38,712 bases of DNA from Desulfobulbaceae bacterium (lineage in GTDB: Bacteria; Desulfobacterota; Desulfobulbia; Desulfobulbales; Desulfocapsaceae): positions 1 to 38,712 of the forward strand of contig QZLB01000027.1 in NCBI GenBank assembly GCA_004796425.1. The letters are read 5' to 3'. Of the stretch, positions 2,225 through 4,975 are shown one piece after another. Position 1 is the first letter of the stretch; every line of letters starts with the position of its first letter. Position numbers and translations under genes: made by a program. The notes under the pieces were generated by a model. The model made no database searches, was not told the DNA's origin, and saw nothing but the letters and a program-made list of their open reading frames with translations.

Positions 2225-2386
2225 TCCTTGTAATTATTCCCAAAGGTTTTATTATAACTGCTCTACTGCGGTAGATACCGCCAACCAGATCACGCACAGC
2301 GTCACTCACACCTGTCTTGTAGTCTCTCTTTCATTTCAGTTGCCTCTGTAGATTCTAGCTGATCGCAACACTATTGGAGAAGCACG
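2225..2386 (+). promoter_or_regulatory. Structured 5' leader of the RRM gene (copy A of a duplicated RNA element)
   Basis: This leader is homologous to a second region at 4345-4493. In order it has: TCCTTGTAAT (2225-2234); hairpin 1 GCGGT/ACCGC (2268-2272 with 2277-2281); hairpin 2 ACGC/GCGT (2292-2295 with 2299-2302) preceded by GATC; the conserved strand CTGTCTTGTAGT (2312-2323); hairpin 3 GTTGC/GCAAC (2339-2343 with 2365-2369); and then the ribosome binding site GGAG (2376-2379) just before the GTG start. Hairpins 1 and 3 keep their pairing while their bases differ from copy B, which points to selection on RNA structure. Its place directly before the ribosome binding site suggests control of translation of an RNA-binding protein, possibly with temperature. 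The function is inference. Confidence 0.6.
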
Positions 2387-2650
2387 GTGAAACTGTTCAT
2401 TGGCAACTTGCCCTATGACACCTCAGAAGCTGAACTGACTGCTCTTTTTAAAGATTACGGTGAAATCATTGAGACAAATCTCATACTGAATCACTTTACA
2501 GGAAAATCAAAAGGATTTGCTTTTGTTGAAATGTCTACCCGTTCAAGTGGTCAGCAGGCACTCGAGTCATTGAACAAAATGAAGTACAAGAACAATATTC
2601 TGGTCTGCAATGAAGCTCAGCCAAAAAAGAAAGGCAGGCGTCGACGCTAA
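2387..2650 (+). CDS. RRM-family RNA-binding protein
   Basis: An 87-residue protein beginning at GTG (2387), chosen because GGAG sits 7 bases upstream and the RRM starts at once. The RNP2 motif is LFIGNL (residues 3-8) and RNP1 is KGFAFVEM (about residues 43-50). The C-terminus is a short basic tail (KKKGRRRR). Bacterial one-domain RRM proteins of this size are cytoplasmic, bind single-stranded RNA, and are often cold-induced. Here the gene is next to a DEAD-box helicase and a cold-shock protein, and it carries the structured leader described at 2225-2386, so an RNA-chaperone role with post-transcriptional control is likely. Confidence 0.9.
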   Translation: MKLFIGNLPYDTSEAELTALFKDYGEIIETNLILNHFTGKSKGFAFVEMSTRSSGQQALESLNKMKYKNNILVCNEAQPKKKGRRRR

Positions 2651-2923
2651 CCAAAAAAATAGGCATTAGTAAGGCCCTTTTCGCTGGGTTATCAATGATT
2701 GGGTTACCCGGTGTCTCGCATCTTCTGAATTAAGACAGCAAAGAGTGAATTGACCTATTGAGCAGTTGTATCACCGCGGGGTGTGCATTCACCCGTATAT
2801 TGCCTCACTATCTTTAAATTAAATAAACCACTCACCTGGACGGGGTTGTGAACCTCCGTCAAAGAACAATATTTAACAACACTTGAATGCAGTTGTTGAG
2901 CAGGTGGGTTAGAAGGAGTACCA

Positions 2924-4201
2924 ATGAGTTTTAAAAAGTTTTCATTTACCAAACAGATTATGAAGAACATTGAGTTGCTGGGCTACCAGCAGCCAACAAA
3001 AATTCAGGACCAAGCGATTGGCCCAATACTAAAGGGTCGTGATGTGCTTGGTCTTGCGCATACCGGGACTGGTAAAACAGCGGCATTCATGCTACCGATT
3101 ATCGAAGGGCTCGCCACAAAGAACCGTAACGGTGTACCAAAGGCGCTGATCTTATCACCGACCCGTGAACTTGCAGAACAGACTGGCAATTGTGCCAAAA
3201 GCCTGACCCGCCAATTATCGATTAACACCACCATAGTGTATGGCGGAGCAAAACGGCATTCACAAGTGAGCAAACTGCAGCGGGGGAGTGATATTGTTGT
3301 TGCCTGTCCCGGTAGATTGCTTGATTTGCTGAATACCAGAGAAATTGATCTTTCAGAGATAGAGTTGTTAGTTCTTGATGAAGCTGATCAGATGCTCGAT
3401 CAGGGATTCCTACCTGATGTTAAGCGCATTGTCAAAAGATTACCTGAGACTACGCAAAACCTTGTTTTCTCTGCCACCATGCCGCATGATGTAAAGGAGT
3501 TGTGTGGCGGGTTACTGAACAACCCGGTTCAGATTAGCTTAAACCATTCTCAACCACTTGACACTATTTCACACACATTACTCAATGTTGAACGAATGGC
3601 TAAAAACGAAGTTTTGAAATCACTGCTCAACCAGGATGAAATGGAATCGGTGATAATTTTTACCCGAACCAAGCACAAGGCTCGAAGTCTCGCACATAAA
3701 CTCAGCAAATCCGGATTCAAAGCAACCTCATTGCAAGGTAATATGTCACAGAATCAGCGCGATTTCGCTTTAAACGGATTTAGGCGTGGTCATTTCAAGA
3801 TTCTTGTCGCAACCGATATCGCAGCACGGGGAATTGATATTGCCACAATATCACATGTCGTCAATTTCGATATGCCAGGGTCTCTGGAGGCCTATACACA
3901 CCGTACCGGTCGAACCGGAAGAGCGAATCAATGTGGCCAGGCCATAACTCTGGTAACAGATGATGATTCAAAGATGGTCGAGATGTTGAACCAAAAACTG
4001 GCCAGTAAACTTTCTCATGAATCACCTCCTCAATATACGGTAGGAAATCATGAGCGTTTAACAGCCTTACCGGCTGAGTCAGAAGAGGGTAAACAGAGGT
4101 CCATGACGACCAAAGACAACGCGCCCAAACTAAGTAGAAAAAAACGGGGGAAACGATCCTCCCAACGAAATCGCGCCGTTGCCTTTGATTTTGGGATTTA
4201 A
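2924..4201 (+). CDS. DEAD-box ATP-dependent RNA helicase (RhlE-like)
   Basis: A 425-residue cytoplasmic RNA helicase. The ribosome binding site AGAAGGAGT lies before the ATG. Visible motifs in order: Q motif around residues 21-28 (QPTKIQDQ); motif I AHTGTGKT; Ia PTRELAEQ; II DEAD; III SAT; motif V region ATDIAARGIDI; motif VI HRTGRTGRA. The last 60 residues form a basic, low-complexity tail ending SRKKRGKRSSQRNR, typical of RhlE/CsdA-type helicases that use the tail to bind RNA. The first residues (FKKFSFTKQIMKNIELLGY) fit RhlE. It unwinds structured RNA, probably in ribosome assembly or mRNA turnover in the cold, in keeping with its RRM and Csp neighbours. The 273 bases before it have no leader like copy A or B. 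Confidence 0.93.
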   Translation: MSFKKFSFTKQIMKNIELLGYQQPTKIQDQAIGPILKGRDVLGLAHTGTGKTAAFMLPIIEGLATKNRNGVPKALILSPTRELAEQTGNCAKSLTRQLSINTTIVYGGAKRHSQVSKLQRGSDIVVACPGRLLDLLNTREIDLSEIELLVLDEADQMLDQGFLPDVKRIVKRLPETTQNLVFSATMPHDVKELCGGLLNNPVQISLNHSQPLDTISHTLLNVERMAKNEVLKSLLNQDEMESVIIFTRTKHKARSLAHKLSKSGFKATSLQGNMSQNQRDFALNGFRRGHFKILVATDIAARGIDIATISHVVNFDMPGSLEAYTHRTGRTGRANQCGQAITLVTDDDSKMVEMLNQKLASKLSHESPPQYTVGNHERLTALPAESEEGKQRSMTTKDNAPKLSRKKRGKRSSQRNRAVAFDFGI

Positions 4202-4344
4202 TTGCTCAGAAGAGGAGGGAGTAACCCTATTTTCCTGGTGATCCATCATGGTTAAATTGACTTGGTCTGAATGTTATTTGCCGGCTTATATTCTGCTATA
4301 TAACATGAAGCCATGGGGTTGTTATTAAAACGAAAGCGAGCTAA
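4202..4344. other. Intergenic stretch after the helicase gene
   Basis: AT-rich spacer without a reading frame of note, leading into the structured RNA at 4345-4553. A promoter for that RNA would be expected here, but no convincing -35/-10 pair was found by eye. Confidence 0.5.
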
Positions 4345-4553
4345 TCCTTGTAATAAGCTGGAGAGCACGTATAATTGAGATATGAGTGGGAATTCCACTA
4401 CCCTGATCACGCATTGCGTCCCTTACCATCTGTCTTGTAGTTTTACATTTGCTATAACCAGTTGACCTTAGAGATTTCTGCTGGTCACAGGAGTAAAAAC
4501 CTGCTTCGTAGAAGCTCAAGATCTCGACCCACACCATTGGGCTGGGTCTTTTT
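4345..4553 (+). ncRNA. Candidate structured RNA ending in a terminator (copy B of the RRM leader)
   Basis: This region repeats the architecture of the RRM leader: TCCTTGTAAT (4345-4354); hairpin 1 AGTGG/CCACT (4385-4389 with 4395-4399); hairpin 2 ACGC/GCGT (4409-4412 with 4416-4419) after GATC; CTGTCTTGTAGT (4430-4441); hairpin 3 TGACC/GGTCA (4463-4467 with 4483-4487); and GGAG (4490-4493). No start codon follows the GGAG. Instead a terminator (4526-4553) ends the unit, and csp begins 220 bases further on. It may be a free small RNA, an attenuator in a long csp leader, or a leader left behind by a lost gene. Spacings between elements differ from copy A by only a few bases, with one 6-base exception. 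Confidence 0.55.
4526..4553 (+). terminator. Intrinsic terminator of the structured RNA upstream of csp
   Basis: GACCCA (4526-4531) pairs with TGGGTC (4543-4548) and is followed by TTTTT (4549-4553). No open frame precedes it, so it ends a non-coding transcript or acts as an attenuator. Confidence 0.65.
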
Positions 4554-4774
4554 GCGATAAAGCGCAGCGCTGAGCAACGTGGTTCGCCGGTTTGCCGTCA
4601 TGCAATGTTGTTAGTTCTGTCTGCTTGTCGGTAGTATAAAGCGTACCGTGGATTGTGAAGATTAATGCTTGAGTGCGAGCGGCTGTAAGGCATTTGGCAA
4701 TAGCTAAACGCAATCGGTTGTTTTGAAATGGCTCGAGTTACTTTTAAAATAGTATTTTTCAGGAGGATGGATTT
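4554..4774 (+). other. Upstream region and probable leader of csp
   Basis: About 220 bases without a gene. It includes GCGCAGCGC-type small inverted sequence near 4563-4571 and ends in CAGGAGGATGGATTT, the strong ribosome binding site of csp. Cold-shock genes commonly have long untranslated leaders, but no known motif is recognised here. Confidence 0.4.
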
Positions 4775-4975
4775 ATGGCTGAAGGAATAGTGAAATGGTT
4801 TAATGACGCGAAGGGCTTTGGGTTTATTGCCCAAGAAGGTGGAGATGACCTGTTTGTCCATCACAGTGCCATACAAGCTGAAGGATTCAAATCCTTGGAT
4901 GAGGGCATGAAGGTGCGTTTTGATATTGTTGACGGTCCAAAAGGGCCGGCAGCCGCCAATGTAGTAAAGATTTAG
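4775..4975 (+). CDS. CspA-family cold-shock protein
   Basis: A 66-residue single cold-shock domain, the usual length for the family. RNP1 is KGFGFIAQ (about residues 13-20) and RNP2 is DLFVHHSAI (about residues 26-34). AGGAGG lies 8 bases before the ATG. The protein binds single-stranded RNA and DNA in the cytoplasm and acts as an RNA chaperone. A near-perfect terminator follows, so it is probably a single-gene transcript or the end of one beginning upstream. Confidence 0.96.

Follow-up and report, generated by a model that had tools for sequence, protein, structure and literature searches.

In a stretch of DNA of 38,712 nt from a Desulfobulbaceae bacterium (contig QZLB01000027.1), which we refer to as the window, two related sequences with the same orientation are found at approximately 2228-2379 and approximately 4348-4493, the first upstream of a gene encoding an RRM protein, and the second between the genes encoding a DEAD-box RNA helicase and a cold-shock protein (csp). 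The locus raises the question of whether these two copies encode a structured RNA placed at the 5' end of messengers, and which task such an RNA would have in front of genes of different kinds. In Escherichia coli, a sequence known as the cold box is common to the leaders of the cspA-family and csdA mRNAs, which have long 5' leaders. Other bacteria respond to cold with a set of RNA chaperones made up of RRM, DEAD-box and Csp proteins (PMC9333190, PMC3485376, PMC4956666). Among these, Rbp1 is required for cold adaptability in Synechocystis (PMC9333190); the expression of the helicase CrhR is regulated by temperature at the post-transcriptional level (PMC3485376), and so is the cspA mRNA, which acts as a thermosensor (PMC4956666).

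The two copies and their predicted promoters

The genes and elements of the locus described here lie on the + strand. Copy 1 precedes the RRM gene (2387-2650; 87 aa; Pfam RRM_1, E 4e-21), whose product belongs to a subtype with the C-terminal sequence LVCNEA..KKK..RRR, and whose Shine-Dalgarno sequence GGAG can be read at 2376-2379; copy 2 is located between the DEAD-box RNA helicase gene (2924-4201; 425 aa; Pfam DEAD, E 1e-50) and csp (4775-4975; 66 aa; Pfam CSD, E 2e-28). A PF00076 search of this genome yields a single RRM gene, and there are five places with a CSD domain. Both copies carry the 12-mer CTGTCTTGTAGT, which in the 4.4 Mb genome has matches solely at 2312 and 4430, and both are picked up, along with many homologues, by BLAST and by a covariance model whose building set included them; the duplication claimed in the initial annotation is upheld by these results. 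The exact 12-mer was discarded as a search key given that its matches across the family were mostly due to chance.

A consensus scan revealed a predicted sigma-70-type promoter at the upstream edge of each copy, at 2228-2255 (-35 TTGTAA, 16 nt, -10 TATTAT) and at 4348-4375 (-35 TTGTAA, 16 nt, -10 TATAAT; promoter match of 10/12). The sequence TCCTTGTAAT, included in the promoter of copy 1 and previously read as part of the RNA, corresponds in both copies to the -35 region and falls outside the transcript. From the predicted promoters, the RNA would start near 2262 in copy 1 and near 4382 in copy 2; at 2156-2187, a stem with 14 pairs that resembles a terminator closes the gene preceding copy 1. 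Upstream of this stem, an in-frame TGA at 1736-1738 splits a multihaem cytochrome-like gene (779-1738; the same frame runs on to 2122) in the context ...GHAIPDG-TGA-PTPNRL, which represents a broken gene, a sequencing error or readthrough.

Among the homologues described below, a promoter-like pair recurs directly upstream of the element in the RRM, DEAD-box and csp classes (with a mean score of 7.9, compared with 6.6 for a control position), and the distance from the element to the start codon is approximately 97 nt for RRM, 140-512 nt for DEAD-box and 320-660 nt for csp genes. Since the element directly follows a promoter-like site in every class and its distance to the start codon is variable, it marks transcript 5' ends and not one particular start codon; we infer from the predicted promoters that it is itself transcribed as the 5' end. 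The earlier statement that the element ends at the ribosome binding site thus holds for the RRM genes, and fails for the DEAD-box and csp genes, where 140-660 nt separate it from the start codon.

Distribution of the element in Desulfobulbales

The leader was compared by BLAST against 258 genomes of the order, and copies were found in 12 genomes of the window's own family, whose named records include Desulfofustis, Desulfopila, Desulforhopalus and Desulfoprunum benzoelyticum, i.e. Desulfocapsaceae of the order Desulfobulbales. A first covariance model (R1) extended the element to 20 genomes of 8 genera. On a sample of the phylum, R1 matched the window's own genome alone, a result explained by the failure of this model to recognize divergent clades, which was corrected with models R2 and R3. 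Genera that R1 had missed carry, ahead of this RRM subtype, leaders that are clearly related but diverged; the model built from them (R2) matched 95 of 251 genomes of the order, belonging to several families, the weakest matches having been inspected in part. R2, a clade II model, also detects clade I copies that were not in its building set (L071, E 5e-5; L064, E 4e-4), hence the two clades are homologous. The broader model R3 added a single genome, from a different family of the phylum, and when 80 RRM loci from many phyla were searched, all the confident matches (E up to 0.01) came from Desulfobulbales. In all, 99 distinct copies were obtained in the order, plus the one genome of another family; in these searches the E-values are rough, the genomes are mostly metagenome-assembled or unnamed, and genes were called from open reading frames.

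An RRM, DEAD-box or csp gene lies downstream in 96 of the 99 copies (RRM 70, DEAD-box 18, csp 8), the others being followed by a broken RRM gene, a contig end and a SET-domain gene, one each; DEAD-box and csp copies were assigned to the first gene that could be recognised downstream, up to a distance of 0.7 kb. The initial annotation had proposed to look for further copies that precede RRM, csp or DEAD-box genes and show compensatory base changes, and such copies were indeed found. The SET-domain case (L254, a genome of family f3) is a weak copy at 232-362 in front of a gene at 595-1278. The element is tied to one RRM subtype, characterized by the C-terminal sequence LVCNEA or close variants, and was not found at the other RRM paralogues inspected in the same genomes. 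In Desulfocapsaceae at least three RRM paralogue types coexist, and 48 of 91 genomes have no RRM.

Several DEAD-box copies look like former RRM leaders: past the Shine-Dalgarno sequence they retain traces similar to ATGAAACTTTTTAT, and L240 and L284 have a broken RRM gene. In two genomes the elements are arranged back to back, approximately 200 bp apart and firing outward (L240, 1869-1988 on the + and 1548-1670 on the - strand; L243, 1658-1773 on the - and 1972-2094 on the + strand), with one element directed to an RRM gene and the other to a DEAD-box gene; the RRM gene of L240 is broken, with ATA as start and an internal stop.

The idea, held early in this work, that the element is confined to RRM genes was overturned by the genus g16. 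A PF00076 search finds no match in ten genomes of this genus, and these ten genomes carry the element (E 1e-9 to 1e-18), located before a DEAD-box gene where the region is readable. Among eight aligned members, column identity is 0.84 in the leader and 0.82-0.84 at the start of the DEAD-box gene, compared with 0.48 upstream of the leader and 0.65-0.70 in the spacer, a pattern of conservation which indicates that the g16 leader is under selection without an RRM protein.

A conserved long-range helix

The folding energy of the individual copies is unexceptional (z 0.49 and -1.03); the evidence for a structure is comparative. The first hairpin that had been proposed (P1) is real: it is formed in copy 1 by GCGGT-AGAT-ACCGC (2268-2281) and in copy 2 by AGTGG-GAATT-CCACT (4385-4399), with its columns offset by one between the two copies, and in most homologues a hairpin of variable sequence folds at this place (mean z -1.6; 20/30 below -1).

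In contrast to what had been described as a GATC hairpin, the conserved pairing is not local: GATCACGCA pairs at long range with TGCTGATC, approximately 70 nt downstream. In this helix (P2), the strand GATCA.C.GCA pairs with TGC.TGATC, and additional inner pairs are formed between GTC and GAT. In copy 1 the 5' strand is at 2288-2296, the inner GTC at 2301-2303 with its partner GAT at 2351-2353, and the 3' strand (GAT...GC.TGATC), the most conserved part of the family, at 2351-2364; in copy 2 the corresponding positions are 4405-4413, 4418-4420 with 4473-4475, and 4473-4486 (GAT...TGC.TGGTC, with a U-G in place of a U-A pair). Between the two strands lies the conserved apical sequence, i.e. the shared 12-mer (2312-2323 and 4430-4441), which in divergent genera corresponds to a TGCAG/CTGCA hairpin.

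In 30 clade I sequences, 94% of the P2 cells are paired and changes on both sides, i.e. compensatory, occur in 6 of 11 pairs, as illustrated by L070 (GATCAGT/ACTGGTC) and L064 (GATACAGCA with TGCTG.GTATC). None of 500 shuffles equals the observed value on any measure, structures slid along the alignment pair at 18 to 48%, and the 5' and 3' strands of the same sequence pair better than permuted ones (203 of 20,000 permutations were as good); given the kinship among the sequences, which are not independent, these p-values are optimistic. Clade II alone independently yields AGCA/TGCT, and across the order this core is 99% paired and nearly invariant, while CTTT/AAAG is 90% paired. An outer helix, P2a (TTAAGT/ACTTAA), occurs in about half of the order with weak covariation (69/500 shuffles reach its score), and there is moderate support for a small apical hairpin near GATGCC. 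The comparison of homologues shows, in short, a conserved secondary structure with compensatory changes.

The third hairpin of the initial annotation did not survive: its two versions occupy different alignment columns (89-93/119-123 vs 91-95/115-119) and neither covaries above shuffles. A local hairpin P3 (TGYAG/CTGCA) was also considered; it is clear in divergent genera, but its covariation in clade I is not above shuffles. In L037, L042 and L073, two extra small hairpins are located between the element and the start of the DEAD-box gene, with stems that vary while the pairing is kept (e.g. GCGTACGTTTACGC, GTGCATAATTGCAC and GCGCCCTTTGGCGC).

Accessibility of the ribosome binding site

At 37 and 10 °C, the predicted unpaired value of the Shine-Dalgarno segment in 67 RRM leaders is 0.55 and 0.53, respectively, whereas with the upstream sequence shuffled it drops to 0.37 and 0.33 (p 4e-10 and 1e-10, a significance inflated by relatedness). 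No effect on openness was observed for 47 control genes (0.365 vs 0.360), and the ribosome sites at the DEAD-box and csp starts were not unusually open either (0.359 vs 0.363). These predictions suggest that the effect of the element on the RRM ribosome site is to keep it accessible, not to occlude it. A temperature switch, suggested in the initial annotation, is plausible. As a mechanism common to all targets, an open ribosome site was rejected, since it holds for RRM genes and fails for DEAD-box or csp genes. A leader peptide was also rejected as an explanation; an ATG reading frame of at least 8 codons is present in just 22 of the 99 leaders.

Possible roles of the element

We lean towards the view that the element is a cold-box-like leader that would keep the mRNAs of RNA chaperones (RRM, DEAD-box and Csp) stable and translatable in the cold. 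According to this proposal, transcription in Desulfobulbales would start at the sigma-70-type promoter located just upstream, and the element would form the structured 5' end of the mRNA, folding into P1, in the window's clade, and into the long imperfect rod P2, which would bring together a conserved 5' segment (GATCACGCA, replaced by AGCA in other clades) and the conserved 3' segment TGCTGATC around the conserved loop region. Thanks to this 5'-terminal module, the mRNAs would last and still be translated at low temperatures, under which RNA structure is stabilised. In the RRM mRNAs the rod would fold on itself beside the Shine-Dalgarno site, leaving it open, while in the DEAD-box and csp mRNAs the element would exert its effect remotely, by way of mRNA stability or of a bound chaperone. 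Against this proposal, the ordinary openness of the DEAD-box and csp sites gives no sign of a single mechanism shared by every target. The element probably coordinates the cold response of RRM, DEAD-box and csp genes across the order. In a bolder version, which we put forward as tentative, one leader RNA family would have been copied to three unrelated families of RNA-chaperone genes and would outlive the loss of its original RRM gene; the result would be a shared post-transcriptional cold circuit, with the chaperones feeding back on the common structure.

As a particular case of the cold-box-like leader, the trans-acting factor might be Csp or the DEAD-box helicase, so that the leader would be controlled by RNA chaperones as occurs with CspA in E. 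coli. We consider this somewhat unlikely. The targets are themselves RNA chaperones and the element is retained in genomes that lack RRM but still have the DEAD-box gene; nonetheless, the E. coli cold-box consensus (TGACGTACAGA, near the 5' end) is not clearly present, given that in the 99 elements the best match has at least 3 mismatches (matches with 3 mismatches in 18 elements, vs approximately 8.5 expected from shuffles). In E. coli, CspA exerts negative control over its own expression (Bae 1997, as cited in PMC11587861), a precedent in favor of such a mechanism.

A different proposal concerns copy 2, which could either lead into csp or form a small RNA of its own. Between this copy and csp there is a terminator-like hairpin (GACCCA..TGGGTC followed by TTTTT; 4526-4553, -10.7 kcal/mol), and a possible second promoter, separate from that of copy 2, is found at 4723-4750, directly before csp; from these two features, copy 2 may not lead into csp in this genome. 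A stand-alone RNA of approximately 170 nt, from the promoter at 4348-4375 to the terminator at 4526-4553, could then act, for instance, as a sponge for whatever binds copy 1. This reading seems unlikely to us: comparable terminator-like features occur in 22 of 60 random windows of 370 nt, and at other csp copies (L044, L070, L072 and L253), where csp lies at 320-480 nt, a terminator of this type is not conserved. For the same reason a conserved terminator acting as an attenuator before csp was discarded.

Autoregulation by the RRM protein, suggested in the initial annotation, would imply that this protein represses or activates its own gene, csp and the DEAD-box gene by binding P2 or the conserved loop of their leaders. 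The location of the element directly before one RRM subtype, with none seen at the other types of RRM gene in these genomes, the presence of an RRM gene in 20/20 genomes with clade I elements, and the likeness of the conserved loop sequences to a protein site are all in its favor. However, the ten g16 genomes without a PF00076 match keep a conserved element before the DEAD-box gene, so RRM autoregulation is not required and another factor must suffice there. The suggestion is thereby weakened: autoregulation is possible in many members, it cannot be the general rule, and as an overall explanation we find it doubtful. It is highly improbable that the conserved region acts purely at the DNA level, as a promoter or regulatory region devoid of functional RNA structure, since, although a promoter is conserved at the edge of the element and conservation is largely of primary sequence, the compensatory changes in P2 are well above shuffles and conservation runs 80-120 nt past the promoter, up to the Shine-Dalgarno site.

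Comparison with known regulatory RNAs

No matches to Rfam 15 were obtained at gathering score for the window and 10 related loci, and no description of the element was found in the open-access papers covered by our literature search. The initial claim of a conserved structured leader RNA that lacks a named family and is tied to a cold-shock-type gene set is supported by these results. The element is similar to RNA thermometers in being a structured leader that adjoins a Shine-Dalgarno site, but it would behave in the opposite way to those that melt to free the ribosome site, which here is predicted to be open at 37 and 10 °C.

To our knowledge, no leader element is common to the cyanobacterial genes rbp and crhR. 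The leaders of these cold-induced genes are comparable to the element in that RRM proteins (rbp) and DEAD-box helicases (crhR) are likewise cold-response genes (PMC9333190, PMC3485376). The Chlorobi-RRM motif (RF01697) resembles the element as a putative cis-regulatory RNA of RRM genes; it differs in being reported only for Chlorobi and in giving no match here, where 2.7 kb of the window and 20 loci were searched by cmscan with permissive filters and E up to 10. We know of no DEAD-box or csp targets of this motif. It was named for the RRM-protein genes that it accompanies, and is listed for Chlorobi alone (Weinberg et al. 2010, PMC2864571).

The closest parallel is with the E. coli cold box and cold-shock leaders (RF01766 in Rfam for cspA): in both cases a leader feature near the transcript 5' end is common to csp and to a DEAD-box helicase gene, all of them cold-shock genes. 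The differences are that sequence and structure are other than those of E. coli, that the main target here is the RRM gene, and that the phylum is a different one; RF01766 has no match in the window, and its sub-threshold matches in related loci fall on the csp gene region, off the element. The element is a new RNA family, and its mode of action would come nearest to that of the shared E. coli cold-shock leaders. It comes with a ready set of targets, and its covariance alignments could found a database entry. One leader RNA would unite the gene sets of two cold responses that have been well studied, namely csp and DEAD-box genes in E. coli and RRM protein and helicase genes in cyanobacteria, and the coordination of RNA chaperones in the cold becomes testable in sulfur bacteria that are common in marine sediments.
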